From the IMG/VR virus record IMGVR_UViG_3300044846_005229, positions 1-64,000 of that record: 64,000 nucleotides of DNA; one strand, written 5' to 3'. Origin of the DNA: a virus. Position numbers and translations under genes: made by a program. The notes under the pieces are model-generated. The model ran no database searches. It was given only the letters and a program-made list of their open reading frames with translations, and was not told the DNA's origin. Shown piece by piece: positions 4,492 through 63,720 of this stretch; position 1 is the stretch's first letter; every line of letters starts with the position of its first letter.

Positions 4492-4499
4492 TTTTACCC
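4492..4499 (-). promoter_or_regulatory. GGGTAAAA motif, candidate late promoter
   Basis: GGGTAAAA on the minus strand ends 27 nt before the start at 4464. It is one of 13 well-spaced copies in this window. Confidence 0.5.
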
Positions 4500-4649
4500 T
4501 TGTTGCGGTTAGTTTGGATAAAACATGGGGAATAGATGCCGGGTGTAAAAGTCCAGTTGTTGTTGGGCTGCTATAGCGAAATCCTTGGGACTTAGCCCAT
4601 TTGAGCAGGGACTGCTCCTGTCATTGACCCTTGAAACGCCATACCCCTA

Positions 4650-6017
4650 TTAGACTCCTTCATAATACATATTGATATACTTACGTGCGTTCTGATTGCT
4701 GACTTTCTCCCATACCCCCCTTCTAAATGATTCTGCCGAATGTTGAATGCCGAATGTTGCTATATCTTTAGCCTCACTCTTCGTCAGTCCGTCTTTTTCC
4801 ATTTCTGTCATCACTTTATTGAAATTCCTTTCCAACACATCAGCTTGTTTGCCTGTCGGGTAATTTGTCATCGCGAAGTTAGTCCCTGTCCATCCACCTA
4901 AAGCTTCAGATAAGGCTGCTTTCCAGTTTTTCTGAGATAACCCCAAATCAACAAACCTGGCCACCCCCTTATCATCAATAATTAAATTATCGCCCTTAGC
5001 ATCATTGTGGGCATACCCTAGTTTATGCAATTTTCCCATAGTGATATTGTAAGCGTCATCTTTGTCAATGCCATTGATCTTTTGAGGGGCCTTGTAAAGG
5101 GGGACTCCTGGAACAACTTCCATAGCAATCATACCTTTGTGGATGGTACCGTTATCCATGTTGCTATGGGCATTCTTTACGAATCTGGAGGCTATTAATT
5201 TGGGGCCCAAACCGACTTCCCCCAGTTTTTTAATTAAGGTAGCCTCAGTTCTACCGATATCCCCAACCTTAACGCCAATTTCATTAGGCATTCCATCCGA
5301 GTATCCAAGTAACTTCTTCGTGGGTATCTTCAGGAATGCTCCATAGCCCCCTGCACCCAATACCCGGGAGCCTGATCCTTCAACTGCGCTCCACTTTACC
5401 TTATCTGCTTTCTCTGAGCCATCAATGCTTATAGTGCCTTCGGGGCCTAGCCTTTTCATTTTGTCTAATAACTTACTGGCGGCTTCTCTGACTTTTCTTA
5501 CCTTATCTGCAGGGATATCACCATTCTTATGGGTAGTCATTGGGGCTGAGGGCCGAGTCCGTGCCACAGTTTCTTTAGGGGTCTTAGGAACTGGTTGATT
5601 CTTTAGTTTCTTGGCAGCATTTATTCTGCCTATAAGGGTGCGAAACCTTTGAATGGCTTGGCCAAAAAATAGTCCCAAGTTGTGTTCTTTGTCTTGAGTT
5701 TGCTTATTTATTGGTGGTGAATTCTTTCCCGTAGGGGGGTTCTTAATTGGGGGATTTTGGACAGGGGTAAAGGCAACTGGTTTGGTAACACCAAAAATCC
5801 TGTCCCTTACTTTTATCAGAGAACCCACAACAACATCAGGCAACTCGATAAGACAAGTCTTCACCCCTTCGATACAAGTTGCTGAGCAGCTTTTACCGAT
5901 AGAGCACCTTTTACGACCACCCCCGACAGCATTTGATTTGGACTTCAGAATCTCAGAACTCGATGGCGCATTGCCGGAGGGTGCCGCAAAGTTGAATTGT
6001 CCTTCACCATTTACCAC
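4650..6017 (-). CDS. Kinase-like protein A with N-terminal Cys tag
   Basis: Product of 455 residues from a GTG at 6017. Residues ~36-56 carry a four-Cys tag (RCSIGKSCSATCI, then C seven residues on) shared with three other proteins here. After a Pro/Lys-rich linker comes a protein-kinase-like fold: glycine loop GAGGYGAFLKIP, a beta-3 lysine in IGVKVGDIG, the catalytic segment AHNDAKGDNLIIDDKG, and a DLG in place of DFG. The C-terminus ends in a conserved KYINMYYEGV. Homologues are at 45095-46292 and 50180-51379. The motifs needed for phosphotransfer look intact; the substrate is unknown. A 59-residue gene lies 9 nt upstream. Confidence 0.75.
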   Translation of the reverse strand: MVNGEGQFNFAAPSGNAPSSSEILKSKSNAVGGGRKRCSIGKSCSATCIEGVKTCLIELPDVVVGSLIKVRDRIFGVTKPVAFTPVQNPPIKNPPTGKNSPPINKQTQDKEHNLGLFFGQAIQRFRTLIGRINAAKKLKNQPVPKTPKETVARTRPSAPMTTHKNGDIPADKVRKVREAASKLLDKMKRLGPEGTISIDGSEKADKVKWSAVEGSGSRVLGAGGYGAFLKIPTKKLLGYSDGMPNEIGVKVGDIGRTEATLIKKLGEVGLGPKLIASRFVKNAHSNMDNGTIHKGMIAMEVVPGVPLYKAPQKINGIDKDDAYNITMGKLHKLGYAHNDAKGDNLIIDDKGVARFVDLGLSQKNWKAALSEALGGWTGTNFAMTNYPTGKQADVLERNFNKVMTEMEKDGLTKSEAKDIATFGIQHSAESFRRGVWEKVSNQNARKYINMYYEGV

Positions 6018-6026
6018 GCGGTGCCT

Positions 6027-6206
6027 TTAACCCAGATATTGCCAAGCAGTGACTACATCCTCAGATACCAACCCATCAATATCCATCTTTTGAGCAGCGT
6101 CTAGGGCCCTAAGGGATTCAACCCGCTTGGCAGGGTCTCTGCGTAACTTTTTGTAACGCTCCATGAGCTTTTGGTATTTGTCGTCGTTGCTTAGTTGAGA
6201 TGCCAT
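6027..6206 (-). CDS. 59-residue kinase-associated protein (paralogue 1)
   Basis: Encodes 59 residues. It is paralogous to the gene at 50001-50180: both are 59 residues, start MAS, and share KYQKLM, then RRDPA, and a C-terminal VxxDVV or VSPEVI block. Each copy lies directly beside a kinase-like gene with the Cys tag. The predicted form is a small helical basic protein. Partner, chaperone or antitoxin roles are speculative. Confidence 0.65.
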   Translation of the reverse strand: MASQLSNDDKYQKLMERYKKLRRDPAKRVESLRALDAAQKMDIDGLVSEDVVTAWQYLG

Positions 6207-6255
6207 TTGTTATGGGGGAGTTTTGAGTTATCAGGCTGTTAAGCCGCATACACCT

Positions 6256-6285
6256 ATTATACCCCGTGGTCGCTGCCTTTGTCAA
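6256..6285 (-). promoter_or_regulatory. Sigma-70-type promoter
   Basis: On the minus strand TTGACA (6280-6285) and TATAAT (6256-6261) are separated by 18 nt, about 50 nt upstream of the 59-residue gene and kinase A. Both boxes match consensus. Confidence 0.55.
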
Positions 6286-6407
6286 CCTTCCTCTCGGTCT
6301 TCTTCGGATTTGATGAAATCCTTAAGGTCTTTGACATATACGCGAAGATCTTGGGCCTTTTGAAGATGCCAATGTTGTTTAGTTTTCAAGTAAAGCATCA
6401 TGTGGTT

Positions 6408-6560
6408 TTGACTTCCTCCCCGCCGTGAACGGCGGAGATTCCTTCTACGCTGCGCATGGGGATGCCTCAGCGATCGGGTGGGTTGGCGCTTCACAGCCTG
6501 CTGCCACCAAAGCGGTGGACTGATGCGTGGCTCCACGCCCGTTTCGACCCTCCGCCAGTC
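6408..6560 (-). ncRNA. Putative omega-RNA scaffold at the IS right end
   Basis: In IS605-type elements the guide RNA of TnpB overlaps the 3' end of tnpB and the right end, with the guide read from flanking DNA. Here the right-end hairpin (6420-6435) and terminal GTCAA are present, and the guide would begin at 6407 going down in the interrupted phage gene. The RNA itself is inferred from family knowledge; its 5' boundary is a guess. Confidence 0.4.
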
Positions 6561-7653
6561 CGGCGGCGAGAATGTTCAAGGCAGCGTTGATGTCACGGTC
6601 GTGGACCGTTCCGCAGCTCGGGCACTGCCACTCCCGAATCGAAAGATCCTTCTTGCCGTCGTGATGCCCGCAGGTTGAGCACACCTGGCTGGTGGGGGGC
6701 CATCGGTTGATGACCACCACTTCACGCCCGTACTGCTCAGCCTTGGACTCCAGCAGGATCCGCAGCTGACGCCAGCCTGCATCGGCAATCGAGCGGGCCA
6801 GCTTCCTGTTCTTCAGCATCCCCGACACATTCAGGTCTTCCAGCACCACCGTTTGGTTCTCACGGATGAGGCGGGTCGAAAGCTGATGCTGATAGTCGAG
6901 GCGCCGATCGCCAACCTTGGCGTGCAGCTTGGCCACCTTGCGCCTGGCGATTACCAAGCGGTTGGAACCCCGTTGCTTGTGCTTCAGGTTGCGCTGTAGC
7001 CGCCGCAGTCGCTTGAGCGCAGAGCGCAGGAACTTCGGCGGGGCGAGCTTTTCACCGTCAGAAGTGACGGCGAGGGATACCAAGCCTAGGTCGATGCCAA
7101 CCGCCCTGCCATTCGCTGGCAAAGGAGTCGGCTCAATATCCACAACGAAGCTGGCGAAGAATCGCCCACTTGCATCGCGGATGACGGTGACGCTGCTCGG
7201 ATCCGAAGGCAGATCCCGGCTCCACTCAATCGGCACCGGGCCGATCTTGCTGAGCGTCAGCGTCCTCCCCCCTGTGCGGAACACATGGGACATGAAGCAA
7301 ACGGACTGCGCACCACGGCGCTTTTTGAAGCGTGGCGGCTTGACCTTCGCGCCCTTGCGCTTGCCTTTCAGGCTGGCCCACCAGTTGCGGTACGCCTGAT
7401 CGAGGTTGCGCACGGACTGCTGCAGCACCACATTGCTGGGCTCCGCCAGCCACTGCCGCTCTGGCGTCTGCTTGGCCTGCGTGATGCAGAGCTTGGCCAG
7501 GACGGGGTAGCTGGTCTTTTGCCCAGCGGCATACAGCTCACGGCTCTTGGCCAGGGCGTCGTTCCATACCACACGGGCGCAGCCGAACGCACGAGCCAGC
7601 GCCACCTGCTGATGCGGGTGGGGGTAGAGCCGGAAGCGGTAGCGTTGCTTCAT
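6445..7653 (-). CDS. tnpB: TnpB, RNA-guided nuclease of the IS605 element
   Basis: Product of 402 residues from the ATG at 7653; the frame is open to 7695 but MKQRYRFRLYP is the family N-terminus. It has the N-terminal helix-turn-helix (HQQVALARAFGCARVVWNDAL), RuvC-I in AVGIDLGLVSLAV, RuvC-II in VVLEDLNVSGM, a four-Cys zinc finger (CSTC...CPSC) and RuvC-III in HDRDINAALN. The three catalytic acidic residues and the zinc cysteines all appear intact. TnpB proteins cleave DNA next to a TAM under an omega-RNA guide and promote retention of their element. The start lies 29 nt from the divergent tnpA start. Confidence 0.9.
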   Translation of the reverse strand: MKQRYRFRLYPHPHQQVALARAFGCARVVWNDALAKSRELYAAGQKTSYPVLAKLCITQAKQTPERQWLAEPSNVVLQQSVRNLDQAYRNWWASLKGKRKGAKVKPPRFKKRRGAQSVCFMSHVFRTGGRTLTLSKIGPVPIEWSRDLPSDPSSVTVIRDASGRFFASFVVDIEPTPLPANGRAVGIDLGLVSLAVTSDGEKLAPPKFLRSALKRLRRLQRNLKHKQRGSNRLVIARRKVAKLHAKVGDRRLDYQHQLSTRLIRENQTVVLEDLNVSGMLKNRKLARSIADAGWRQLRILLESKAEQYGREVVVINRWPPTSQVCSTCGHHDGKKDLSIREWQCPSCGTVHDRDINAALNILAAGLAEGRNGRGATHQSTALVAAGCEAPTHPIAEASPCAA

Positions 7654-7682
7654 ACCAACCACCATACCAAACTTGGGGTGCA

Positions 7683-7945
7683 ATGGCGCAACCACCGCTT
7701 AGGCGAGGAAGGCACAGCGTTTCTCGGCTTGTCGTTCATTTGGTCTTTGTGGTCAAGTATCGGCGCAAGGCGCTGAGCGGGGCGGCATTGGATCGGATGC
7801 ACGAGGTCTGCCTGGGCATTGCCGAGCGGATGGGCTTCCAGCTGCTTGAGCTGAACGGCGAAGCAGACCATGTGCATCTGCTGGCGGGGCGCCCATCGAG
7901 CGTCTCAGGGAGTATGTGGAGTCTCAGGAAAAGCCGTCCTCAAGG
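7683..7945 (+). pseudogene. tnpA: TnpA (Y1 transposase), internally deleted
   Basis: The first ~69 residues match the start of an IS200/IS605 transposase, including VFVVKYRRKAL and the HUH metal-binding motif in DHVHLL. Immediately afterwards the family C-terminal segment (APIERLREYVESQEK) appears in a different frame. About 50 residues between them, including the region that normally holds the catalytic tyrosine, are missing. The gene is therefore an internal-deletion derivative and the element cannot transpose on its own. A full-length TnpA elsewhere could still mobilise it because both ends remain. Confidence 0.85.
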
Positions 7946-8079
7946 ACGGGGTTTGTGTCCCAGAACAGCCCCGTTATCAATGGCTTTAAGCAAGCTATGA
8001 ATTACTGGGTTCCACGGGCCCCTTATTGGGTTATCCCATTCTCTTTTTGACATTTGACCTACCTACTATTCTATGGGCA

Positions 8080-8811
8080 TCACTTAATAACATTGAGACT
8101 TCTATTGAAGTACATCCTGCGGTCTTCCAACCCATTATAACCACCATTTACTCTGCGGGTAACTTGTTCTACGGTGGGATTCTTATCACATAGGGCATTC
8201 ATCCCATTGTTAAACCACCAAAAACCTGCCGAGGAAAATGGATACTTATCAGCTACATAATTAGCCCCTTGCATAACTTGTGGATCTTTGATAAAATTGG
8301 CAAAGTCCTGATAGTTTGCTCTACCTGTAAGCTGAATGTAACCGGCACCTTTGAAGCGGGGGCCATCCCCCGGTTGGGTATTTCCCAGATCTTTCCTACC
8401 TTCGTAATCCCAACCCGAAGCCAACTCTTTCTTCCAGCGACCACCACCAGATTCATGCGCAGTTTGACTAAGGAAATGACGAATTCTTTGCGGAGTTGTG
8501 ATTGCAAATTCTTCTAGACATCTATTAAGTTCGGTTACTTCAGAATCTAAAATCAAGCTTGGGGCACATTGCCAAATATATGCCAGAGACTCTTTGGAAA
8601 CATACTGCTTTGGGGTTGGTGGCCTAGTGGGAGTTGGTGGTTTGTAGGGTGTACGATATTTCCTTACCCAACTAGCCTCATCTGTAAATAGTTCGGGTTG
8701 TTTAGCAAAAACCGCCTTGGCAAAATCCAAAAAGGCACTTTCTTGAAGGGGGTTGTCTGTTCTACGGTTATTGACAAAATCTAAGAATTTCTCTGCAGTG
8801 AATTGGGGCAT
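8080..8811 (-). CDS. Endolysin, GH19 chitinase/lysozyme-like
   Basis: Product of 243 residues. The frame is open to 8910, but I choose the ATG at 8811 because a GGGTAAAA motif ends exactly 23 nt upstream, as at other late genes. Residues ~1-60 form a helical N-terminal part, followed by a Pro-rich linker ([11 protein letters not shown]). The rest is a GH19-type catalytic domain: [12 protein letters not shown] with the likely catalytic Glu, then [20 protein letters not shown], and the [13 protein letters not shown] and VTRRVNGG blocks. It would cleave peptidoglycan at lysis. No signal peptide is seen, so a holin is needed. Confidence 0.85.
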
Positions 8812-8834
8812 CTTGTTTCGGGTATCTATTGCTA

Positions 8835-8842
8835 TTTTACCC
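8835..8842 (-). promoter_or_regulatory. GGGTAAAA motif, candidate late promoter
   Basis: Minus-strand GGGTAAAA ends 23 nt before the endolysin start at 8811. It lies inside the noncoding gap after the upstream stop at 8865. Confidence 0.55.
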
Positions 8843-8864
8843 GCCTCATCACATCCAGACCTAA

Positions 8865-9557
8865 CTACGTCAACCCTGGTCCTGCCCCTTGCTCCCCAGA
8901 TGGGGTACATTTATTTCGATTATTTTGGGCCATCTGCGTCTCAGACTGCTCAGGTTTAGGGTTCTTTGGCATTTCTTCTTGGGAGTCTACCTTTGGTTGT
9001 GCTGTGGGCACTTTAGAGTCTTCCCTTGGCTTCCTTGGTGGCCATACCTTGCCAGTAGTCAACCCCTGTGGTGGTTCTTCAAATGAACGCAAACCCTTTA
9101 ATTGCAGAGATCTAGGGCCAGGTTGTGGATTTTCGCTAGGGGTAGCTAAAGGCGGCAATTTACCGGACTCATTTTCTTTTAGTTTGCCTTGACTACCTTT
9201 TTGTTTCCCTGGCTTATTATCAATATCCATGGTTGATAAACCTTGGGCTCTGGTAGTTTTGTTTTCTTTGGGGGTTTCCCCACCGGTACTGCCCTTATCG
9301 AATTGCCTATCCCATGCACCGGACTCCAACATCTTAGAAACCCTATTTGCAGATTCCTGGGAGAATCCAATTGATTGTAAGGCCTCAGCATAGTCGCCCC
9401 TTTTGCAAGCAGATAATGAAATCGCAATTGCTTGCTTAGGATTTTCTACCACTGGGCCAGCCTTGCCAGCTTTGCCAAAACCAGAATGAAGTTTGCCAGC
9501 TTTGAACCGGCGCATTTCATCCCTGACGCAATTTTTATCGTCTGGATTGACTGGCAT
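8865..9557 (-). CDS. DUF6496-like protein with long disordered tail
   Basis: Product of 230 residues. Residues ~10-55 ([20 protein letters not shown], then [13 protein letters not shown]) fit the short basic DUF6496 pattern found in phage and bacterial small proteins. Residues ~85-230 are low-complexity and rich in Pro, Lys, Gln and Ser, so probably disordered. A GGGTAAAA motif ends 23 nt upstream of the start, inside the end of the upstream coding region. Function is unknown; late expression is inferred from the motif and the adjacent endolysin gene. Confidence 0.6.
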
Positions 9558-9563
9558 TTTTAA

Positions 9564-9773
9564 CTACCGAATTTCCAAAATTTTACCCTCTAGTTCCTCT
9601 ATGTAGTCTAATAGGGCCGTGGTCTGAGCCGATAGCTTTATTAGTAGACAAGAACTTTCAACAAGGTATTCTTCCAGCTCTTGTCTGGATAGAAGATTAA
9701 TTTTTTCCCTAATTTTGAAAGGAATTAGTTCCTTTTCTAGGGGTAATTCAATTTGTGGCCTTTGGAAGTCCAT
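9564..9773 (-). CDS. nblA: NblA/Ycf18-like small protein
   Basis: Product of 69 residues, all helical. The pattern ELPLEKELIPFKIREKI, LSRQELEEYLVE, then a hydrophobic helix ending in LLDYI, lines up with NblA: a short EL-LE-EF helix, the LSxEELxExL turn, and a C-terminal helix. NblA proteins target phycobilisomes for proteolysis, and freshwater cyanophages are known to carry them. The gene overlaps the 3' end of the sigma-factor gene by 26 nt, so the two are co-transcribed. Other two-helix proteins could look similar, so the name is tentative. Confidence 0.45.
   Translation of the reverse strand: MDFQRPQIELPLEKELIPFKIREKINLLSRQELEEYLVESSCLLIKLSAQTTALLDYIEELEGKILEIR
9581..9588 (-). promoter_or_regulatory. 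GGGTAAAA motif, candidate late promoter
   Basis: Minus-strand GGGTAAAA ends 23 nt before the ATG at 9557. It is embedded in the last codons of the upstream gene. Confidence 0.55.
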
Positions 9774-10431: not shown

Positions 10432-12372
10432 TTAAGCCTCGCAAGCTGTGCAATCTGTGTATTCTGGGGTGGTTTCTGTGGGCAGATTAAACTTTAAGAC
10501 ACTGTTTTCTTCTTTGTACTGCATGTACTCGGTATAGCCCCCGATGTGCTTATCGTAAAGCCATAATTGAGGGACGGTTTTCCAGTCGTGGTTCCAGTAA
10601 CCCTTGTCAATAGCCTCTTGTTTGTCCATCTCTTTATAAGTAATACCACAGCGGTAGAGTTCTTGTTTCAGGCTGTCGCACCAAGGGCACCCTTCCTTGG
10701 TAACGATGAGAGCTGGGGCTTTCTTTTTCTTCGTTAGAAGAGAACTCGACTTAAGGTAATAAAGAGATTTGAGACCCATTTTCCAAGCAGACAGGTGAAG
10801 ACGCATAATATAATCTGCATCAGCTTCGGGGTCAACAAACAGGTTTAGGGATTGCCCTTGGCAAATAAAGGGTTGACGATCAGCGGCTTGTTTCACAAGC
10901 TCAAACTGATCAACTTCCCGAGCTGTCTTAAACACCTCTTTTTCCTTGTCCGTCAAGCAAGCAAGTCCTTGAACACTGCCCCTGGCTTCCAGAATCTCGT
11001 CCCACACTTCTGGCCCAACCCCTTTTTTACAAAGTAGGCTCTCAAGAATAGGGTTCTTCCGAACATATGAACCTTTGGCTTGCTTCGCTACGAAATAGTT
11101 CGAGGCAATGGGTTCAATTCCTTCCGACCCCGCTCCGCAAATAACACTATTTGTTTTTGTTGGAGCAACGGCTAACAAATGTGTATGGCGCTTCCCACTA
11201 CCGACACACCACTCAGGTTCCCCCAGCTTGACTGCCAGCTCCCTTGAAGCAGTTTCGGCCTCTTGGAGGATCCATTTGTGAACCTGGGTATTAAGTTCCC
11301 TGGCTTCTTGGGACTTAAAGGGTAAGCCTCTTTTCTGATAGAGGGTATGCAGGCCCATGACCCCTAAGCCCAATGCACGAGACTTCTCAGCGAAACGGAC
11401 CGAACGGCCCATCCCCACTTTGTCCTTAGCCTTGCGAATGAACTCGGAAACAACGGATTCTAGAAGGTGGACAGCAATCTGAGGCACTGAGCGGCCAGAA
11501 ACAGGGGAGCGCCAATCCTTAAACTCGTCGTATTTCGATAAGTTAAGAGAGGAAAGGACACAAACAAAGGAATGGTTTTCGTCGGTATGAAGAAACACTT
11601 CGGAACACAAATTACTCGTCTTCACTGTCAGCCCTCTCTCAACGTAACAGGCAGGGTTCTGATTGTTGGCGTTGTCAATGAAGATAAGGTAAGGGCTACC
11701 TGAAATCATTCTTGTCTTGAGTACCTCTCCAAAAAGCTCTTGTTTTTCCTTGTTACCTGCGATCATGGATTCTATCCATTCGTCTGTGATCGTTAGGGCT
11801 ATGTTACTGTCAATTTTTTGACGAGAGTCCCCGTTAGCATGATCTTTTGCTCTAAGGATTTCTGGCACGTCGGGGTGTGATATGGGCAGATACATCGCAA
11901 AGGATCCGCGACGAACACCCCCTTGGGAGACAACTGAAGCGCATAAGTCGTATTGCCTAGCCCAAGGGACTATGCCTGTAGACTTTCCACCGCCAGAAAT
12001 TGGAGTTCCTGCGGGCCTCACATCCCCAAAGTACACACCAACTCCTCCACCATTCTTACTCAAAGAAGCCACCTCCTTTAGATGGGAATAGATCGAGGAT
12101 ATACTATCGGTAAGATGTATAGAAAAACAACTTATAGGTTGCCCACGATTGGTACCAAAGTTGGAACAAACTGGACTTGCAGGTCCGATAAAACCATTCC
12201 ACAAACAGTGAAAGAGATCTTCTTCTAGGGTCGGATCTTGATTGAGTTTGGCTGCTGTTGAGGACAATCTCGTCATCATATCACGAGGTGTCTCACCAGG
12301 TAGTAAGTACCCTGCAGACAATGTGTGCAAAGCCTCTTCAGACATCCATTCGGGGTGAGGTGTATTGGTCAT
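10432..12372 (-). CDS. nrdA: Ribonucleotide reductase class I alpha subunit with inserted glutaredoxin domain
   Basis: Product of 646 residues that reduces ribonucleotides to deoxyribonucleotides with NrdB. It lacks the N-terminal ATP cone. Catalytic features are visible: first active Cys in PISCFSI, the N-x-C-x-E motif in TSNLCSEVFL, the second Cys in SFVCVLSSLNL, the radical-path YY in LKSLYYLKSSS, and the C-terminal DCTACEA redox tail. Between the barrel and the tail (about residues 555-630) lies a complete glutaredoxin fold: CPWC active site, the cis-Pro loop TVPQLW, and the GGYTEY motif. Enzyme and reductant are thus on one chain. Its start overlaps the stop of the homing endonuclease gene by 4 nt. 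Confidence 0.9.
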   Translation of the reverse strand: MTNTPHPEWMSEEALHTLSAGYLLPGETPRDMMTRLSSTAAKLNQDPTLEEDLFHCLWNGFIGPASPVCSNFGTNRGQPISCFSIHLTDSISSIYSHLKEVASLSKNGGGVGVYFGDVRPAGTPISGGGKSTGIVPWARQYDLCASVVSQGGVRRGSFAMYLPISHPDVPEILRAKDHANGDSRQKIDSNIALTITDEWIESMIAGNKEKQELFGEVLKTRMISGSPYLIFIDNANNQNPACYVERGLTVKTSNLCSEVFLHTDENHSFVCVLSSLNLSKYDEFKDWRSPVSGRSVPQIAVHLLESVVSEFIRKAKDKVGMGRSVRFAEKSRALGLGVMGLHTLYQKRGLPFKSQEARELNTQVHKWILQEAETASRELAVKLGEPEWCVGSGKRHTHLLAVAPTKTNSVICGAGSEGIEPIASNYFVAKQAKGSYVRKNPILESLLCKKGVGPEVWDEILEARGSVQGLACLTDKEKEVFKTAREVDQFELVKQAADRQPFICQGQSLNLFVDPEADADYIMRLHLSAWKMGLKSLYYLKSSSLLTKKKKAPALIVTKEGCPWCDSLKQELYRCGITYKEMDKQEAIDKGYWNHDWKTVPQLWLYDKHIGGYTEYMQYKEENSVLKFNLPTETTPEYTDCTACEA

Positions 12373-15021: not shown

Positions 15022-15049
15022 ATTATAGCAAGTCCTTAATGAAAGTCAA
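15022..15049 (-). promoter_or_regulatory. Sigma-70-type promoter upstream of hli
   Basis: Minus strand: TTGACT (15044-15049), 16 nt, TATAAT (15022-15027). The -10 box is perfect. The flanks (TTGACTTTC and CTTGCTATAATGG) recur nearly unchanged at two other sites (23480-23507, 34281-34308). The -35 box overlaps the end of the gene at 15036. Confidence 0.75.
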
Positions 15050-15916: not shown

Positions 15917-15924
15917 ATTTACCC
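15917..15924 (-). promoter_or_regulatory. GGGTAAAT motif, poorly spaced copy
   Basis: Minus-strand GGGTAAAT lies 32 nt before the start at 15884, outside the usual 21-27 nt window. It is part of a palindrome GGTAAATTTACC. It may not be functional. Confidence 0.25.
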
Positions 15925-31519: not shown

Positions 31520-31527
31520 TTTTACCC
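31520..31527 (-). promoter_or_regulatory. GGGTAAAA motif, candidate late promoter
   Basis: Minus-strand GGGTAAAA, 23 nt before the ATG at 31496. It heads the operon 31496-23517 with the tail proteins. Confidence 0.6.
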
Positions 31528-34873: not shown

Positions 34874-34881
34874 GGGTAAAA
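34874..34881 (+). promoter_or_regulatory. GGGTAAAA motif on the plus strand
   Basis: Plus-strand GGGTAAAA ends 24 nt before the ATG at 34906, the only gene on this strand. The same spacing as on the minus strand argues the motif is oriented and functional. Confidence 0.55.
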
Positions 34882-40203: not shown

Positions 40204-40211
40204 TTTTACCC
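40204..40211 (-). promoter_or_regulatory. GGGTAAAA motif, candidate late promoter
   Basis: Minus-strand GGGTAAAA, 25 nt before the ATG at 40178, in a 44-nt gap between the two giant genes. Confidence 0.55.
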
Positions 40212-46753: not shown

Positions 46754-46761
46754 TTTTACCC
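46754..46761 (-). promoter_or_regulatory. GGGTAAAA motif, candidate late promoter
   Basis: Minus-strand GGGTAAAA, 22 nt before the ATG at 46731. It overlaps the stop of the upstream gene by one base. Confidence 0.55.
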
Positions 46762-47588: not shown

Positions 47589-47596
47589 TGTTACCC
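47589..47596 (-). promoter_or_regulatory. GGGTAACA motif, candidate late promoter
   Basis: Minus-strand GGGTAACA, 21 nt before the ATG at 47567; one base differs from the main motif. Confidence 0.45.
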
Positions 47597-49627: not shown

Positions 49628-49635
49628 TTTTACCC
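49628..49635 (-). promoter_or_regulatory. GGGTAAAA motif, candidate late promoter
   Basis: Minus-strand GGGTAAAA, 23 nt before the ATG at 49604. It overlaps the end of the holin-like gene. Confidence 0.6.
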
Positions 49636-49973: not shown

Positions 49974-49981
49974 ATTTACCC
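49974..49981 (-). promoter_or_regulatory. GGGTAAAT motif, candidate late promoter
   Basis: Minus-strand GGGTAAAT, 23 nt before the ATG at 49950. Confidence 0.55.
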
Positions 49982-51404: not shown

Positions 51405-51412
51405 ATTTACCC
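51405..51412 (-). promoter_or_regulatory. GGGTAAAT motif, candidate late promoter
   Basis: Minus-strand GGGTAAAT, 25 nt before the ATG at 51379. It overlaps the stop of the acidic gene. Confidence 0.5.
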
Positions 51413-54918: not shown

Positions 54919-54926
54919 TTTTACCC
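54919..54926 (-). promoter_or_regulatory. GGGTAAAA motif, candidate late promoter
   Basis: Minus-strand GGGTAAAA, 26 nt before the ATG at 54892. Confidence 0.55.
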
Positions 54927-55273: not shown

Positions 55274-56692
55274 TCATGTGACGGTGGGTAGTAGTTGACT
55301 GTAGCTAACTAAGATTGCACATAGGGTGTCGGACGGGGGCCCCAATGGAATCTGGGGGTCATCACATCTATTCAAAGTGCTTTGGATATTGGGATTGGAA
55401 GATTTCACTCTCCCTGAGTCTAGCATATGGGAGATAGCGTTTAATGTGGGTTGCCTCGGCTTGCTACCTACGCAAACCTCTAACCCCAAACCCCGTAGGT
55501 ACACAGTCCAAGCTGCACTTGCCATGGCGGATTCAAGTACAATTTCTTCCGCTCCGTATGCCTTAACTGCTAGACTTAGGATTACTCCGACAGTTTTCAA
55601 GTCCCAATTGCCTTCGTAAGTGTCAAGAACATACATGTAGTCTCTTCCCCTTGTAACCCCTGCGATGCAAATACCCGTTTTATCAATGTTGTCGGCACTG
55701 AAAGCAGGATCAACAGAAATAATTACTTTATCTAATGGAGGGATTTCTGGTGTCGGTGAGCATCCCTTATAGAGCCAGGAGAACTTTTCATCTCCTATGT
55801 TTCTTTTGAGGTCTTTCAAATTTTCGGGGGACTGGTATTGGTTGGCATTTCCTAAGGTTCCCCCAATGGGCCTGCCCAGAATGTCAGCCTCTGCCTCTTC
55901 TTTACTTTCAATAATTGCTGACAGATTAATGTGGACGGCTCCTTTTGGGTTTGATACGGGGTCAAAGACACCGAATTTATCTAAGAAGTAGCCGAAAATG
56001 TCTTCATCACCCCATCTTGACCCAAGAACAACAATGGCACTGTTTTGGTGGCGCCGGGTCATAATTTCCTCTTCTATCCAATCTTTATTCACTGTTATAT
56101 CCGAGGACTTGTGATAGTCATCGATCAACCAGACCCCAGGCACTTTAGAATCGGGATTGATGTTCCCATAAGCAAACCCACATACAGAGCCCCCAGGAGC
56201 AGACGGCACGACATGATAAGGATCCAGGTCAATTTTAGAAAAAATTTCCTCAAAAAGTGGATTATTAACCTCTTGCTTCACCCTATTTGCCGTCACCTTT
56301 GCAAGACTTTGGTTGTAAGAAGTTACGAAATTATTAGTATAAGGATCTTTCCCCAGGAGCCAAGACAGAAATAGGGAGCCCAATGTAGACTTCCCAGTAC
56401 GAGGAGGCATCGATACTAAGAGGATTGGGTACCTGCCTTCGGCAATGTCTTCAAAGGCGGACCCCAAGACTTCATAAGTTTCCCAGTTCAGCAGGGAGCC
56501 AAACTTTACTTGAGCGGAACGAGACAAATAGGCAGGAAAACTATATTGGGCGCACTCTTTAATGTAGTCATTAATTATTTCCTTAGTCGCGCCTCTCATT
56601 ACAAGTTCAAGAAGTCCCCTCCTATACTTTCTCCAGCTTGAATGTTCCGATAGCTGGGAAGAGTGTGTTATTTTTGGGTGTTTTGGTGTCAT
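55274..56692 (-). CDS. Second terminase large subunit-like protein
   Basis: Product of 472 residues, homologous to the neighbour at 56748-58478 but shorter. ATPase motifs: Walker A SMPPRTGKST, Walker B VWLIDDYHK. The nuclease half carries acidic residues in IISVDPAFS and VLESAMASAAW, with a final Asp in GPPSDTLCAI. Both ATPase and nuclease motifs look intact. Tandem paralogous TerL genes are unusual; one may serve a specialised packaging step or be an ancient duplicate. A CAACACAAGC-type direct repeat lies in its 55-nt upstream gap. Confidence 0.7.
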   Translation of the reverse strand: MTPKHPKITHSSQLSEHSSWRKYRRGLLELVMRGATKEIINDYIKECAQYSFPAYLSRSAQVKFGSLLNWETYEVLGSAFEDIAEGRYPILLVSMPPRTGKSTLGSLFLSWLLGKDPYTNNFVTSYNQSLAKVTANRVKQEVNNPLFEEIFSKIDLDPYHVVPSAPGGSVCGFAYGNINPDSKVPGVWLIDDYHKSSDITVNKDWIEEEIMTRRHQNSAIVVLGSRWGDEDIFGYFLDKFGVFDPVSNPKGAVHINLSAIIESKEEAEADILGRPIGGTLGNANQYQSPENLKDLKRNIGDEKFSWLYKGCSPTPEIPPLDKVIISVDPAFSADNIDKTGICIAGVTRGRDYMYVLDTYEGNWDLKTVGVILSLAVKAYGAEEIVLESAMASAAWTVYLRGLGLEVCVGSKPRQPTLNAISHMLDSGRVKSSNPNIQSTLNRCDDPQIPLGPPSDTLCAILVSYSQLLPTVT

Positions 56693-56747: not shown

Positions 56748-58478
56748 TCAGAGCGATAACCCATAACCAGTGTCATCCCTGTTGAGGCGAGGTCTGGAAA
56801 AAGAGTCTGGACCGATAAAACCAGAACCAGAATCTAAATTATTGTAAAGTCCAGCCGAGGGTAAATTCCTCCCTACTCTACCAGTAGGTAAATTCGAATC
56901 ACCCAGGAATGGCCTTCTGTTTCCTCCGTTCCACCTCCTCGCTTGTATTATAGCATCTTGTACCCCACGGTCAACGGTGTCTAGCTTCATCGCATAGTAC
57001 GTCAGGGACCACACAAACGCATCCACCGAGTCATCGTGCTTAACGAAGGGGAATCCTGTTAGCTCCTTAATAAAACTATCCACCCATAACCCCTCAACGA
57101 GTTTAACCCTATCATTCTCTAGAAGTGGACAAACAGCTTCGAGTCTAACCGTTTTTGACCTAAGGGGTCTCATTTCTTCTACAGGTATTTTTGTTTCCCG
57201 TCTCAACATTTGTATCAAAGATTGGCCGGATGCTGCCTTTTCGATACAGATTACTTTTGGTTTGTAGAAGGAATGTAGTTGCTTAATAGATGCAATCAAA
57301 TCAGGGAAGCCCCATCTCCCTTTAACGATTTCCCTAATGTAAACAGTTCGGGGGTCCCTAGTTGAAATGCCAGCCACACAGACCGCAGTTTCGTCTGCAC
57401 CTTCTTTTTCAGAAAATGCACAGTCTACACCTAGCCATACTACATCTAGTGGTGGGCACTTTTCTTCTTCTATCCTAACTATCCACCCAGCCTTTACAAT
57501 TTGACCTTCTGCTGCAGTTGGAGTCCCTTGATAAAGGGCCGCAAATTTGGAACTGCCCATAGTTTTCTTTTGGGCTTCCAGCATATCAACCGAGAATGCC
57601 GGGTTATCAGGCCAATGGGACTCACCGATTTGCCTGCCTAAGGGGTCATCGACAGGGTCTTCACACAGGCCCGCAATATTCACCCATCTCCAACCTTCTG
57701 GGTTTTCTTCCTCATCATAGCTACCGTCCGATTCTAAAACCTGGCCATGCAAATCATTGGCATGAAACCTGGTCGCAATAATTAGACGGCAATAATTGTT
57801 AGTTTTACGTGTCGATGCCTCTTCTTGCCACCACGTTTGGAGACTCTCAAAAGCCCTGGCAGAAGCTGAGCTTTTCAGTGGGTCGTCGATTACCATGGCC
57901 CCCACACCTGGGCTAATAATGTTTACAGACCCTGCCGTATGGCCAGTCAACACACCACCGACAGAAGTAGGCAGGATGTATCCGCCACTAAGCATCTCAA
58001 ATTTAGAGTCCCTAGCAAAACCTTTCCAATCAGGGAAGATTTTCTTAAAGACAGGTGTCTTCAACATGCCGATAACTTCCTTATGGAACTTATTGGACAG
58101 TGATAAACCATAAGAGGCAATAACGTGTTGAGTTTCTTGATCTCTTCCTAGTAACCAAGCCACAAACATCGACGCCAGCATTGATTTACCAGATCGAGGG
58201 GGACAGGATACGATCAAGTTATGGTAGCGTTTATTTGCTAGATCCTCAAAACCACTGGCAATAATTTCATGGAAATCCGCGACTTTTAACGCACCACCCT
58301 TCATCAAGTCTGCAAAGGCCAGGAAACAATACCTGGAAGACTCAAACATGTAGTTCTGAATGACAGAGTTTGGTGCTTCTAAGACATTAAGATGATGTAA
58401 ACCCCTAATGTAATGGCGCCATGAGCTGTGTTCATCTAGTTGACTAGCGTGGTTTATTATCGGCCGTGGGAGTGTCAT
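56748..58478 (-). CDS. terL: Terminase large subunit
   Basis: Product of 576 residues. Walker A is VSCPPRSGKSM, Walker B VMVIDDPLK-type (GAMVIDDPLK). The nuclease half has acidic residues in WLGVDCAFS and a late Asp pair (VKHDDSVDAFV). It is the packaging motor ATPase and headful nuclease. Its ATG overlaps the stop of the upstream small gene by 4 nt. The second copy follows 55 nt downstream. Confidence 0.88.
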   Translation of the reverse strand: MTLPRPIINHASQLDEHSSWRHYIRGLHHLNVLEAPNSVIQNYMFESSRYCFLAFADLMKGGALKVADFHEIIASGFEDLANKRYHNLIVSCPPRSGKSMLASMFVAWLLGRDQETQHVIASYGLSLSNKFHKEVIGMLKTPVFKKIFPDWKGFARDSKFEMLSGGYILPTSVGGVLTGHTAGSVNIISPGVGAMVIDDPLKSSASARAFESLQTWWQEEASTRKTNNYCRLIIATRFHANDLHGQVLESDGSYDEEENPEGWRWVNIAGLCEDPVDDPLGRQIGESHWPDNPAFSVDMLEAQKKTMGSSKFAALYQGTPTAAEGQIVKAGWIVRIEEEKCPPLDVVWLGVDCAFSEKEGADETAVCVAGISTRDPRTVYIREIVKGRWGFPDLIASIKQLHSFYKPKVICIEKAASGQSLIQMLRRETKIPVEEMRPLRSKTVRLEAVCPLLENDRVKLVEGLWVDSFIKELTGFPFVKHDDSVDAFVWSLTYYAMKLDTVDRGVQDAIIQARRWNGGNRRPFLGDSNLPTGRVGRNLPSAGLYNNLDSGSGFIGPDSFSRPRLNRDDTGYGLSL

Positions 58479-58756
58479 ACTTGAGGTTTAAACTTCTTAA
58501 TGAGTTCAGCCGCAGTACCTATATACTCCTTAGTGAGTTCCTTCTCAGACTTACTTTCACCTTCTGTCAAAGCAGCCGTATCGGAAATGAAATCCCTATG
58601 GGCTTTAACGGAAAAGTTAAAAATTTTCACTAAATCGTCAGTACTACACTCCTCCAAAGAAGCCTGGATAATGGTCAAGGAGTCCTCAGCTACTTGTAAA
58701 GTCCTGAGAGCTAGCTTTTCCTTTTGACGTAGAATTTTTTCATTTTGATTCATCAT
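58475..58756 (-). CDS. Small helical protein before terL, candidate small terminase
   Basis: Product of 93 residues (ATG at 58756, or 58753). It is entirely helical, with a charged N-terminus. Its stop overlaps the terL start by 4 nt. Small terminases are usually encoded just upstream of terL, and the size fits a short one, but I see no helix-turn-helix that would confirm it. Confidence 0.4.
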   Translation of the reverse strand: MMNQNEKILRQKEKLALRTLQVAEDSLTIIQASLEECSTDDLVKIFNFSVKAHRDFISDTAALTEGESKSEKELTKEYIGTAAELIKKFKPQV

Positions 58757-58905
58757 CTGAATCTCCTATTACAACTTGAGCAACCCTGTGGTTTAGGGGT
58801 AGATTTGTAAGAGTGCAATCTTCTTAGCAGGGTTTCAGCTAGTTTGTTATCGCCGGATTTAACTGCCGTATGGTACTGAGCCCATAGGGATCTTGGAGTT
58901 TCCAT
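58753..58905 (-). CDS. 50-residue CxxC protein
   Basis: Encodes 50 residues ending in a CSSCNRRFR metal-binding-like pair. Its ATG directly follows the TAA of the upstream gene with no gap, and its stop overlaps the next start by 4 nt, so translation is coupled on both sides. Helical N-terminal part. Function unknown. Confidence 0.6.
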   Translation of the reverse strand: METPRSLWAQYHTAVKSGDNKLAETLLRRLHSYKSTPKPQGCSSCNRRFR

Positions 58906-60241
58906 TTAACAATTAGCAAAGTTGACAAGGTGTAGAGTTTCCTGCCTGCACATCAGATTGGGAGTTGCCACTTGGATCCCATTTTTACGGAGGCAATCAT
59001 GGCAATCTTCAACACAGGGCCGTAGGTTCTGGCCCACCCTGGCAAACCCCACACCCAAGTTTCCACAGGGAATTCATGGAAGCAAGTTCAAATGTACCTT
59101 CTAGTAACCAACCTTTCCCTTGAGGGGATTGACCCACGAAGTAAAATCTTCCCTTAGGCGCTTGAATGAATATATCTGGTTTTACCCCAATTAATGAACC
59201 TCCCGCCAGGGTTTGGGTTTTTGCCTCTGGATTTAGGGGATCTGAGTAGAAAATTTGAAAAGCCCCTTTAACAACTGCAAATTCACCGGTATTCATACCT
59301 TGGAAGAAAATAGCCTCTTTGACAGAATCGGATGCAATGCCGCTATTGCCATCGGTTGCCCCTTCCAGTGTATTTCTCCATAATTCAACGGCATATCTAG
59401 CTAGTTTTTTCCCAGAATCTACATAGAAAACTTCCCTCAGTGGCTGCCTAGTTTGAGCGTCCCAAACGGTAACCACTAGGCGACCATCTTCGGTATAGCT
59501 ATTGTTACTAAGCAAGTAAATAGGTTGCCCCAGGGGGTCTTCTATGTATACTTCGCTAGGATCGCAGATAAAGACCCAGTCTCCACTTTGGGTTACTTCA
59601 TTACTCCATCTGATGCCAGATTGGTTGGAAAACTCATATTCTGACGGATTAGCGCCAGGGTACCATGGGACATAAATACTACCGGAAGCCTCGTCTACTA
59701 CTCCGCCTAGGGGTAATGTGGTAGCTACATTAAGTCCTGGGAACAACTGCCTGCAATCTCCCCTTTGGACACAAGGGTCTAATGCGACGTATGGGTAGAC
59801 TTCCTGGACTGTTACTGTATATAGTTGGGTGTATGTGTATTGAGATTGATTGGTTACTCCTGTAAATTGGGTCGATGCACAGTGGAACGGCTCAGTAACT
59901 TGTACGAAAGAGCCCGACGGCACCCCACCTGAAATTGTAATTTCTGAACCCATTAACAACTGGGTGGCAAAATCATGGCCAGAACTGGTTAGGTAATTTT
60001 GGCAGGAGAAATTCAATTCGAATTGCATCCTCTTATCGTAAATAAGGGGAATTTTATTTGTCACATTAGACGATGCCCCCACAAATCTAACCACAATGTT
60101 GTTAGTCTGATTAACCACACCCTCGTTATCCATGGCATCTGCCAGCCGTAGGACATTGACATTAAGTGGAATTAAAGGTGATGCTATCAAGGAGTCGCAT
60201 AAGTATTGCTCTATGCGGGTTATAGTAGAAAGTTCAGCCAT
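58906..60241 (-). CDS. Mu gp37-like (DUF1834) neck/tail protein, apparent frameshift
   Basis: From 60241 the frame ends at 59009, but one base removed in or near the C4 run at 59047-59050 extends it to a TAA at 58906, directly in front of the next ATG. The extension is protein-like (VGQNLRPCVEDCHDCLRKNG). The corrected product has 444 residues. The N-terminal ~130 residues (RIEQYLCDSLIAS, VVRFVGASSN) resemble Mu gp37, a tail terminator or neck component. The rest is a beta-rich domain of unknown role. Confidence 0.65.
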
Positions 60242-60249
60242 TGTTTACC

Positions 60250-61329
60250 TCATGGGAATATTGTATTTGACCCGCCGATATCGTAACCACCCGCATCATT
60301 AGGTTGTATGACTTGTGGGGTGCCCCCTAGGTCTTCATAATTACTATCTGTTATCCAGTTGGAGTTGGTATTATTTTGTCCCGTGGCGCCATAACCCAAT
60401 CGGTAATCTGGGGATTGATCCCCGGCTGGGTCATTATTCCAACCACTCAGACCTTTCCCAGATACACCATTATACCTTTGTGGAATACGCCATGTCCGCA
60501 TTATGCCGCGTTTAGTATCAATAGCAGAGTCCCCGTGTCCTGCCCGAATAGCAGTCATTTGCCGTTCGGCATCTAGTTGCTTAAGGGCCTCTACATAATC
60601 ACTTTTGATGTCATCTCTTTTACGGACTGTATCAAGGTAGTATCTAGCAATAATTAATGCGGTCCTTCTGCGACTACTGGTAATTAGTACCTTGCCAGCC
60701 TTCCCAGACTGCTCAATGTAAGAGTCAATTAGAGAATTAGCGTCTTCGATTGCCATCCTAAGTTTGACTATGTTGACACTAGTTGCAGAAGCATCATCGA
60801 TATTTGTCAGTTGAACGGCTTCCTTAAGGCCGAAGGCTGTGATGAAATCATCCGGGGATGCGCTACGTGGGTCTGAGCGGTTGGGTGTTAAAACTCCTGA
60901 GCGATCCTGATAAGGGAAGCCATAGCCGCCGATGGTTTGCCCTAGGTTAGACCCTTTTTGGGTGCCGTCGGTCTTTTCGTCAGGGGCTAACGTATTTTTA
61001 ACCGCAAACCTATAAAAGGCCCTGACGGCATTCCTCTTTTTGATTACATCATTTGAACCCGGTGGTATGGGCCCCCTGAGGCATACATTTAGGTCTAGTG
61101 GTGGCTCATACGAAACAAAGACTTCATCCCAAGGGGACAATGCAGAATCTAACCCCAGTGAAATCATCGTATCTGAGGAATACACTATGGTGTTCACCCC
61201 GTATTGACCGAAGCATACTGTGAAGCTGGAGACGGGGACCGGTATGGTGATGTCTAATGGCCCATCAAAGAATAGGACGACATTATTTGGGGTCGTTAAA
61301 GTGGATTCCTTTAATTTGGGTATTGCCAT
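60250..61329 (-). CDS. Mu gp36-like (DUF1320) head-tail connector
   Basis: Product of 359 residues. Residues ~195-265 match the DUF1320 pattern: DANSLIDSYIEQSGK, RRRTALIIARYYLDTVR, SDYVEALKQLDAER, as in Mu gp36. The first ~110 residues are an extra beta domain. It would sit at the head-tail interface. It lies directly between the gp37-like gene and a small gene with short gaps. Confidence 0.6.
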   Translation of the reverse strand: MAIPKLKESTLTTPNNVVLFFDGPLDITIPVPVSSFTVCFGQYGVNTIVYSSDTMISLGLDSALSPWDEVFVSYEPPLDLNVCLRGPIPPGSNDVIKKRNAVRAFYRFAVKNTLAPDEKTDGTQKGSNLGQTIGGYGFPYQDRSGVLTPNRSDPRSASPDDFITAFGLKEAVQLTNIDDASATSVNIVKLRMAIEDANSLIDSYIEQSGKAGKVLITSSRRRTALIIARYYLDTVRKRDDIKSDYVEALKQLDAERQMTAIRAGHGDSAIDTKRGIMRTWRIPQRYNGVSGKGLSGWNNDPAGDQSPDYRLGYGATGQNNTNSNWITDSNYEDLGGTPQVIQPNDAGGYDIGGSNTIFP

Positions 61330-61331
61330 GA

Positions 61332-61745
61332 TTATCTATGGATTAAGAAATCGTCAGGTTCATTGGTTACGGGGAAGAAATTCTCTGATACCCAAAATGG
61401 ATAGGCATCTCTATTGACTCTGACTAGGAAGCCTTTCCCCTCCGGGTACAAGCAATTGACCAATACCTGGGCAGCAAGTCTCAGGGGCCATTCATCTCTC
61501 CAGTTAATCTCCCAATGCTCTACTGTAATAAGATTACCCACAAGAGTGTAATCGATTCTGGACACAATATAGCCGCCCCCGAAATCAGGTGCAGGGTAGT
61601 CAAAAGTTTGCTGCAATGACTCATAGGGTTCTCCGTCATATTTACCGAGGATATATCTTCCTTGTTCTGAGCCATTTTCATAGTATAGAAAATCTTGAAA
61701 GGCAAATAGGTCTTGACGATAAATTGAAGGTCGGCGGATAGCCAT
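61332..61745 (-). CDS. Small structural protein
   Basis: Product of 137 residues, beta-rich with aromatic residues (IVSRIDYTLVGNLITVEHWE) and a W/R-containing segment. Found between connector and baseplate genes; likely a virion component. No family recognised. Confidence 0.55.
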   Translation of the reverse strand: MAIRRPSIYRQDLFAFQDFLYYENGSEQGRYILGKYDGEPYESLQQTFDYPAPDFGGGYIVSRIDYTLVGNLITVEHWEINWRDEWPLRLAAQVLVNCLYPEGKGFLVRVNRDAYPFWVSENFFPVTNEPDDFLIHR

Positions 61746-61747
61746 TG

Positions 61748-62149
61748 TTAAATCGCAGCGAGTACTGTGAATGTGCCATTCTGGGTTACAATTCTAGTCG
61801 GCCTAAACTCTATACCAGCGACAATCAGGCGGTCGGTATTTGTAATGTCATTTACCCTAAGGGTTTTTTCGCAGTTTACGGGTTGTTCGCAATTTACTGC
61901 CTTAAGAAAGTTAGTTTGGACCCCGACGCTGAACAAGTCCTTACTAAGCAAGCTATCACCTACAGAAAATGATACATCGGCAAATATGCTTCGAGACGCA
62001 TAGATTGAATCATAAACCGACAGATTATTAACTACACCAAGGGACTGATAAAAAACTGGAGCCAACGGGTTTGTGGCACTTTGGCCGAACCCTTGATAGA
62101 TTGGGAACCCTGGGTCATAATCAGCGTTGTAGTTACTTTCGAATGCCAT
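61748..62149 (-). CDS. Small structural protein
   Basis: Product of 133 residues, Asn/Ser/Tyr-rich with two cysteines (VNCEQPVNCEK). It starts one base into the next gene's stop region and is tightly linked to the spike gene. Probably a baseplate or tail component; no family recognised. Confidence 0.55.
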   Translation of the reverse strand: MAFESNYNADYDPGFPIYQGFGQSATNPLAPVFYQSLGVVNNLSVYDSIYASRSIFADVSFSVGDSLLSKDLFSVGVQTNFLKAVNCEQPVNCEKTLRVNDITNTDRLIVAGIEFRPTRIVTQNGTFTVLAAI

Positions 62150-63342
62150 TATTTAAAGGGATTTAGTGCGGAAGTCAAGGATGAGTAAACAGTGTTTATA
62201 GTACCTTGGGGATTTTGTAGCGTTTTTAGTATAAAATTAGTTTGAGGGGAATACGATTGTAGGGCCGCCAATGCAGTTGACTGAATAAATGTCGTGGGAT
62301 CTGATATGATGTTCCTTGCAGCCTCAGTGATAGAAAGGGCTTTTTGTGCTGTTTTTAAAGCGGTCTCCGCAAAGTTAATGCCAGGTATTGCCGGTAGGGT
62401 CGCTGGAATTTGTGGGGTCCATGCAGTAGTAAAAGAGCCTTTAATTTGGCCTTCTATGTACCCAGCATCCTTCCTCACAAAATCCATCGCAGCACCCATG
62501 TCTAGGAGCTTAGGGTCTTCGAAAGGGAATGGTTGTTTATCGCTCATCGGTGGGGGATTCCAATTAGCATCGACCCCAAATGGGTTACCAGTGGGCGCAG
62601 TCCCGAAAGCTGAGTATCTTTTGCACTGGCCATTGGATGTTGGAAAAGTACAATCACTTACCGTCCCGGCTTGAATGGGGTTTTGCCTATTTCCGGAAGA
62701 GTCTGGTGGCTGAATAGAGTCATTAGCCCCTGCGTGTCCATGTTGCAAGTCACAATGTCGTACCCAGATGTACTCGCCGTTTCTTTTCAGACAGACGCAT
62801 ACCCAGTCAGAACTCATGGGGCCATCTTCTTCTATGACAGAGCAACCACGGTTTTCCTTGCAAGGTGGGGGTAGACCCCCTGAGGGGTAAACTGGGAGGC
62901 GAGTCATGGAAGAGTTGTTAGGAATTGTCAACCCCCCTGCCGCTTGTTCTGTTAGGTTTTGTGGGTCGTAAAGGGTATCACTCAAGATGGCATAGTGGTA
63001 TTGGCCATTACTTAGTATGACATTTACTCTGGACCCTACCAAGTCCGGGGGCTGCTTACCGACAAATGCAGGAGAAGCGTCAATCCAATGTGAATATGAA
63101 TTTCCTTTACCGTCCCTTGGACCCGAAAATAAACCGGCCCCTTCAACCTCAGGTATATCATCCGGGTTCATAGCATCAAATAGTACCCTAACCCTACCGA
63201 GATTCTCAGGGTCATCGACATCGACTATTTTCCCCCTAACCATCCCCCTAGGTAAACCAGCATACTTAGCATTGGATTCTGCAAATAGCATCAACCTGGC
63301 TAAATTGTGAGTTAGCGGTATGCAACTGAGACTTTGTGCCAT
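62149..63342 (-). CDS. Baseplate spike protein (gp5/gpV-like)
   Basis: Product of 397 residues. Residues ~33-130 form an OB-fold spike base: MVRGKIVDVDDPENLGRVRV, HWIDASPAFVGKQPP-type loop, and ILSNGQYHYAILSDTL. Ahead of a Pro/Cys-rich linker (PPPCKENRGCSV, VCVCLKRNG) the pattern is typical of tail-tip spikes that puncture the outer membrane. It shares one base with the upstream stop (TAATG). Confidence 0.75.
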   Translation of the reverse strand: MAQSLSCIPLTHNLARLMLFAESNAKYAGLPRGMVRGKIVDVDDPENLGRVRVLFDAMNPDDIPEVEGAGLFSGPRDGKGNSYSHWIDASPAFVGKQPPDLVGSRVNVILSNGQYHYAILSDTLYDPQNLTEQAAGGLTIPNNSSMTRLPVYPSGGLPPPCKENRGCSVIEEDGPMSSDWVCVCLKRNGEYIWVRHCDLQHGHAGANDSIQPPDSSGNRQNPIQAGTVSDCTFPTSNGQCKRYSAFGTAPTGNPFGVDANWNPPPMSDKQPFPFEDPKLLDMGAAMDFVRKDAGYIEGQIKGSFTTAWTPQIPATLPAIPGINFAETALKTAQKALSITEAARNIISDPTTFIQSTALAALQSYSPQTNFILKTLQNPQGTINTVYSSLTSALNPFK

Positions 63343-63689
63343 TACTTATGCGCTGAGAATCTAGGGGTATTTCTAAGTTGGGTGCGCTTTGGCCGGGGTT
63401 TGACTATCTTTTGTTCCTCTTGTGCCACTTGTGCCACTTGTGTGTCACTAATCGGAAATTGAGTTAATTCATTTTTGTCTAACTCTGCAGTTTCCTCAGG
63501 CACTTTTGGTTTAGAGAGGGCTTTAAGAATTGGGCTTAGTTGCTTGGGGCTTACTTCCAAAATTGGTTCAGGGCTTTCGGGGGTAGCGGGGTTCCCAAGG
63601 TTCCCAAGGCCCTCAGCGCTATCGGAGGTAGCGGGGGTAGCGGGGGTTAAATCCTGAGTCTCATCCAAGTTTTTTCTTTTGGTGGTCAT
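63342..63689 (-). CDS. Small proline-rich unknown protein
   Basis: Product of 115 residues, low complexity: Pro, Thr, Ala and Glu repeats in the first half, basic at the end (KPRPKRTQLRNTPR). A GGGTAAAA motif 23 nt upstream makes it the first gene of the spike operon, running towards the terminase genes. Confidence 0.55.
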   Translation of the reverse strand: MTTKRKNLDETQDLTPATPATSDSAEGLGNLGNPATPESPEPILEVSPKQLSPILKALSKPKVPEETAELDKNELTQFPISDTQVAQVAQEEQKIVKPRPKRTQLRNTPRFSAHK

Positions 63690-63712
63690 AATAATTTGTT
63701 TGTATGATAGAT

Positions 63713-63720
63713 TTTTACCC
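63713..63720 (-). promoter_or_regulatory. GGGTAAAA motif, candidate late promoter
   Basis: Minus-strand GGGTAAAA, 23 nt before the ATG at 63689; it heads the operon reaching down to the terminases. Confidence 0.6.

Follow-up and report, generated by a model that had tools for sequence, protein, structure and literature searches.

The Window and Its Repeated Octamer

The DNA considered here (the window) comprises bases 1–64,000 of the 279,339-base virus record IMGVR_UViG_3300044846_005229 and harbors an octamer, GGGTAAA(A/T), that recurs before start codons and is a putative late promoter. The ends of the record overlap by 124 bases, and the contig is thus circular; 378 of the 390 called genes of the whole genome lie on the minus strand. 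The terminase large subunit (TerL) shares 54% identity with its counterpart in Synechococcus phage S-CBWM1 and 34% with the one in cyanophage S-TIM5. Judged by this kinship, the virus is a cyanophage, i. e. a giant freshwater cyanobacterial virus with cyanophages as relatives. Gene starts in this genome (G000) stem from a simple calling script, while gene classes in the isolates S-CBWM1 and S-TIM5 follow the published annotations; further relatives from IMG/VR are designated G001, G002, G003, G005 and G008.

All 13 copies of the octamer listed in the original prediction are present, with the strand and letters given there, and 12 of them read GGGTAAAA or GGGTAAAT. On the minus strand, GGGTAAAA is found at 4492–4499 (ATG 4464), at 8835–8842 before an endolysin family gene (ATG 8811), at 9581–9588 before a DUF6496 gene (ATG 9557), at 31520–31527 (ATG 31496), where GGGTAAA also precedes the distant S-CBWM1 homologue, and at 40204–40211 before a tail fibre gene (ATG 40178). 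It recurs on this strand at 46754–46761 (ATG 46731), a site conserved in relatives whose proteins are only 33–37% identical, at 49628–49635 (ATG 49604), at 54919–54926 before the PhoH gene (ATG 54892) and at 63713–63720 (ATG 63689). GGGTAAAT occurs, likewise on the minus strand, at 49974–49981 (ATG 49950), at 51405–51412 (ATG 51379) and at 15917–15924, a copy absent from the earlier list that stands 40 nt before ATG 15884. The remaining listed copy, at 47589–47596 on the minus strand (ATG 47567), is the variant GGGTAACA, which is conserved in close relatives despite a differing upstream flank. The plus-strand copy of GGGTAAAA at 34874–34881 was described as reoriented with its gene, and it does belong to the sole reversed gene of the region (start 34906). 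The S-CBWM1 orthologue of this gene (52% identical) is likewise reversed and has AGGTAAAA upstream.

The described gap of 21–27 nt between motif and ATG, most often 23 nt, is borne out (23 nt in 6 of 13 cases). This distance is too large for a Shine-Dalgarno sequence, as had been argued, and Shine-Dalgarno-like words are not enriched across the whole genome (9.0% vs 9.7% background).

Enrichment and Distribution

In the window, GGGTAAAW occurs 25 times against 7.9 expected from dinucleotide shuffles, none of which (0/100) reached 25. Within the 60 nt before called starts of the 279 kb contig, GGGTAAA is the top enriched 7-mer (27 vs 4.6 expected) and GGGTAAAA the top enriched 8-mer (20 vs 2.3 expected). 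GGGTAAA begins 28–40 nt before 22 of 411 called starts, compared to a mean of 0.97 and a maximum of 5 for shifted starts (400 shifts). The density of GGGTAAAA amounts to 33.5 per 10 kb in this interval and to 0.29 in sense coding DNA, a roughly 100-fold difference; it is 0.05 on the strand antisense to coding DNA and 0.72 in the rest of the noncoding DNA. Hence, copies are not equally common inside genes; had they been so, this would have spoken against a promoter by the terms of the original prediction. Taken together, the shuffles, the density comparison and the shifted starts rule out chance or base composition as the source of the motif.

The motif favors virion genes. In S-TIM5, it precedes 18 of 47 virion or packaging genes but only 1 of 31 metabolic or regulatory genes (p=2e-4); the corresponding numbers in S-CBWM1 are 10 of 21 and 2 of 23 (p=5e-3). 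In the window, the assignable genes that carry it encode the endolysin, the tail fibre and PhoH, and outside the window copies are found close to the genes for tail sheath and head protease, at atypical distances of 106 and 15 nt from the called starts. The proposal that nearly all motif genes are structural, lysis or late-type genes therefore holds where a function can be assigned (endolysin, tail fibre, sheath, head protease), but about half of them have no assignable function.

Conservation and Variants in Relatives

The same position is occupied in relatives. In the shifted-start test, GGGTAAA was found 28–40 nt before starts 21 times in G001 (vs 0.99), 16 times in G005 (vs 0.35), 18 times in G008 (vs 0.37) and 18 times in S-CBWM1 (vs 0.60). 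Based on annotated starts, GGGTAAAA is also the top enriched upstream 8-mer of S-CBWM1, and the pattern GGGTAAAA-N16-24-ATG matched 32 times in five relatives vs twice for a reversed-pattern control. About 18 relatives retain the octamer before phoH, at protein identities that go down to 54% and with flanks that cannot be aligned. At the equivalent position, two relatives with a GC content of 65% harbor GGGTAAG (in G002, 11 vs 0.36), and S-TIM5, a distant isolate, harbors GTTTAAAG (15 vs 0.25).

In S-CBWM1, a repeated stretch of about 25–30 bases, GATGTGAAAGATTATTCACTGTCCCA, lies directly before several late elements, namely upstream of 26693, 65933, 126669 and 132375.

Anatomy of the Sites and a Second Promoter Class

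A profile of 108 distinct aligned sites from five genomes has few conserved columns: the motif itself, a weak A at −1, weak A/T-leaning columns just downstream and an A at motif+14 (58%), which would sit about where transcription begins. No conserved −35 element is found upstream in these 108 sites. TTGAC is missing at the proper −35 distance from the motif sites in GGGTAAA genomes, and since this upstream element is lacking, host SigA acting with a −35 TTGAC is ruled out as reader of the motif.

Another host factor deserves consideration. Cyanobacterial SigF recognizes GGTAA at −12 and TAGGC at −32, while the −10 element of SigB is GGGTAT (PMC2758279). The phage might thus supply SigF-type promoters only, to be read by host SigF itself, as the −12 element would suggest. 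Yet SigF also needs its −32 element, and none of the 148 GGTAAA-type sites, taken from five genomes, has TAGG[ACT] at the matching distance. Moreover, the late sites of S-TIM5 carry GTTTAAAG and no SigF element, which makes a direct role of host SigF very improbable.

Alternatively, the motif could be no promoter but a part of the RNA leader that serves translation or mRNA stability. The fixed position before the ATG and the missing Shine-Dalgarno enrichment would agree with such a function. However, in some cases the copy falls within the gene upstream or at its end, the spacing between motif and start has a spread of about 10 nt, the sequence agrees with a known class of −10 elements, and an A is enriched at the expected transcription start. 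A function in RNA is therefore improbable.

Besides the GGGTAAA sites, a second class with the −10 words TGCTATAAT or TGCTATACT comprises 56 sites in this genome, 19 of which have TTGAY upstream. TGCTATAAT sites are concentrated at small genes at about 110–197 kb, often 32–38 nt before them, and one lies in the window at 15030. These sites are probably early promoters for host SigA. In the early promoters of G001 (L150–L163), the −35 TTG and the −10 CGGTATA flank an inverted repeat, TTTCTGC...GCAGAAA, which resembles an operator placed in the spacer.

When this genome was searched de novo for a third class of promoters, with the two known classes removed, mainly AC-rich leader words came up; ACCAACC repeats are abundant in many of its leaders. 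Intrinsic terminators just upstream of the motif can be seen by eye before 71515 and 54892, and a detector reported them at 1 of 29 motif sites vs 4 of 382 controls. With such low counts, upstream terminators were dropped as proof of re-initiation.

Two Candidate Sigma Factors

P0001 (9748–10428, minus strand) and P0002 (15927–16502, minus strand) are the two sigma-like proteins of the genome. The large subunit of ribonucleotide reductase with a C-terminal thioredoxin-like domain (nrdA, 10432–12372, minus strand) is encoded directly upstream of P0001 and is probably co-transcribed with it, and this nrdA-sigma gene order is shared with S-CBWM1. A sigma70-like promoter, TTGACT...TGCTATAAT, at 15022–15049 on the minus strand heads the same-strand gene run leading to P0001, which we infer to be an operon. 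Because the P0001 gene overlaps the nrdA end within a run headed by this SigA-like promoter at about 15030, P0001 could be made before the late genes.

P0001 possesses regions 2 and 3, with region 2 and 2.4 of the SigF/SigB type (group 3), but lacks the −35-reading helix-turn-helix of region 4. The best NCBIfam models for P0001 and its homologues are SigF (NF005644) and SigB/F/G (TIGR02980), its best cyanobacterial BLAST matches are SigF, and its region 2.4 segment ARGYIQHALRDYSRLVKTPRW resembles VRGEIQHFLRDKSNCVRIPRRW of SigF and not SigA. Among the best PDB matches are Staphylococcus aureus SigB (8x6g) and a sporulation-type sigma (1l0o). A whole-chain fold search merely returned generic sigmas with low TM-scores, owing to domain flexibility, and did not separate SigF from SigA. 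Pfam detects no region 4 at the C-terminus of P0001. Sigma70_r4_2 gives a weak match in 7 of 21 members of the P0001 family, which falls on the region 3 helix-turn-helix in P0001 and in S-CBWM1. In an AlphaFold model, the predicted P0001 C-terminus has helices but no helix-turn-helix after the linker (predicted template modelling score, pTM, 0.46; the low values of 0.46–0.47 for the models are as expected for flexibly linked domains). The absence of a −35 element at the sites fits the absence of this region 4 domain.

P0002 is the obvious rival as reader of the late −10 element, which would leave P0001 for another promoter class. It is sigma70-like, and its type accompanies P0001 in G000, G001, G005 and S-CBWM1, all of which have GGGTAAA. 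However, P0002 combines region 2 with a predicted region 4 helix-turn-helix that it retains, yet the sites have no −35 element, and its region 2.4 is unlike that of SigF. In addition, no P0002 homologue was found by searching S-TIM5, which possesses the equivalent motif GTTTAAAG and a single annotated sigma, gp108, of the P0001 type. Finally, the P0002-type gene of S-CBWM1 at 101633 (L055:1633) itself carries a GGTAAAA element, GGTAAAATA, which suggests that the P0002 type lies downstream in the cascade; in several relatives, the P0002-type gene has SigA-like −10 words instead. Overall, a readout by P0002 appears unlikely.

The single-element architecture and the use at virion genes are also reminiscent of phage T4, and DnaN-like clamp domains were detected in G000 at 171361–172125 with a hidden Markov model (HMM). 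One could thus imagine T4-type late transcription by a gp55 homologue, gp33 and the gp45 clamp at a drifted TATAAATA. But P0001 matches phrog_351, and P0001 and P0002 together match phrog_351 and phrog_1740, not phrog_234, which is T4 gp55; alignment of P0001 and P0002 to T4 gp55 with hhalign gave a probability of 0.3–0.6%. Neither gp45 (PF02916) nor gp33 (PF16805) was matched at E≤0.1 in G000, S-CBWM1 or S-TIM5, and TATAAATA occurs in 0 copies 28–40 nt before starts of this genome, without any enrichment. This renders a T4-type system exceedingly improbable. The T4 analogy drawn in the original prediction thus stands as a functional likeness, but with no gp55, gp33 or gp45 homologue found, the system is, by these comparisons, not that of T4. 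The HMM match to DnaN-like clamp domains in G000 was not found in S-CBWM1 or S-TIM5.

Other features of the genome include two adjacent genes in the window (55274–56692 and 56748–58478) that both match terminase large subunit families. The latter corresponds to TerL of the relatives, and the former looks like a diverged paralogue. Fifteen tRNA genes are clustered at 254–262 kb (L013).

Proposed Mechanism and Its Implications

The reading best supported by these data is the one first proposed, in which one of the two phage sigmas recognizes a late promoter made of a single element. The missing −35 element, the fixed position, the conservation, the enrichment at virion genes and a candidate sigma without −35-reading domain all speak for it. 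GGGTAAA(A/T) is quite probably such a promoter, equivalent to a −10 box, in a cyanomyovirus lineage distinct from T4, and P0001 would be its reader.

Some observations weigh against it. The scores of P0001 against NF005644 and TIGR02980 lie far below the curated cut-offs, and its kinship to SigF is modest, with a support of 82 in the Shimodaira–Hasegawa-like approximate likelihood ratio test (SH-aLRT). S-TIM5 gp108 shares only about 29% identity with P0001, over 98 residues, and sits on a long tree branch. G003 (GC 37%), which has a sigma of the P0001 type (44%), shows hardly any enrichment of the motif (3 vs 0.27). Operons must be assumed, because most virion genes have no motif copy of their own. 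Since both sigma types co-occur in every examined GGGTAAA genome with a searchable sigma region, the case for P0001 as the reader is built on S-TIM5, on the domain structure and on kinship.

From the sequence, we infer promoter function, timing, start site and the pairing of sigma and motif as follows. Host RNA polymerase with host SigA would first transcribe the early genes from TTGAC...TGCTATAAT promoters, and would also drive the nrd operon that ends in the P0001 gene. With its regions 2 and 3, P0001 may then take the host core polymerase to GGGTAAA, which it would read via regions 2.4/3 without the need for a −35 contact. Transcription would start about 6–7 nt past the octamer, at the enriched A, giving leaders of about 15–20 nt without Shine-Dalgarno sequence.

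Conceivably, this cyanomyovirus lineage, which includes jumbo phages, arrived independently at a T4-style late transcription by capture of a host SigF-type sigma that lost its −35-reading domain and kept the −10 reader, with sigma and element co-diverging (GGGTAAAA, GGGTAAG, GTTTAAAG). The odds for and against this scenario appear even. If it is true, the co-diverged series would provide a natural set for studying how sigma factors read −10 elements, and with the paired changes of sigma and element across relatives, −10 recognition by group 3 sigmas could be tested directly. The cultured phages S-CBWM1 and S-TIM5 put the sigma model within experimental reach. If the sigma assignment is correct, a SigF-like sigma with no detected gp33 or gp45 equivalent would constitute a second route to single-element late transcription. 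The motif would offer a late-gene regulatory code for widespread freshwater and marine cyanophages, which are transcriptionally uncharacterised in the literature searched, and late genes could be called from sequence alone.

Comparison with Known Systems

No description of the motif was found in the open-access papers searched, which did not include the S-CBWM1 and S-TIM5 genome papers. The original prediction likewise named no description of it, but the motif does resemble the −10 elements of the SigF/SigB class, which is the nearest class of the candidate sigma.

The Microcystis myophage Ma-LMM01 has no gp55 or gp33 homologue, and its late promoters are SigA-like (PMC5780444). It resembles the present virus as a freshwater cyanomyovirus without T4 late-transcription genes and differs in the type of its late promoters. 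Like GGGTAAA(A/T), the T4 late promoter (TATAAATA; gp55-gp33-gp45) consists of one short element in front of virion genes and lacks a −35 element. It is read by a small phage sigma without −35-binding domain that acts with the host core polymerase, as is proposed here for P0001. In contrast, the letters are different, the sigma belongs to another family with regions 2.4 and 3 intact, and no gp33 or gp45 homologue was found. Promoters of Bacillus and Staphylococcus SigB likewise have GGGTA at −10, and the P0001 family matches S. aureus SigB (8x6g), but SigB promoters possess a −35 element and SigB a full region 4. The cyanobacterial SigF promoters, such as that of pilA1 (TAGGC at −32, GGTAA at −12), share the GGTAA core, and P0001 is most similar to SigF in regions 2–3. 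Unlike these, the phage sites lack a −32 element and P0001 lacks the region 4 helix-turn-helix, while a conserved AA(A/T) extension and the use at virion genes set the phage element apart.

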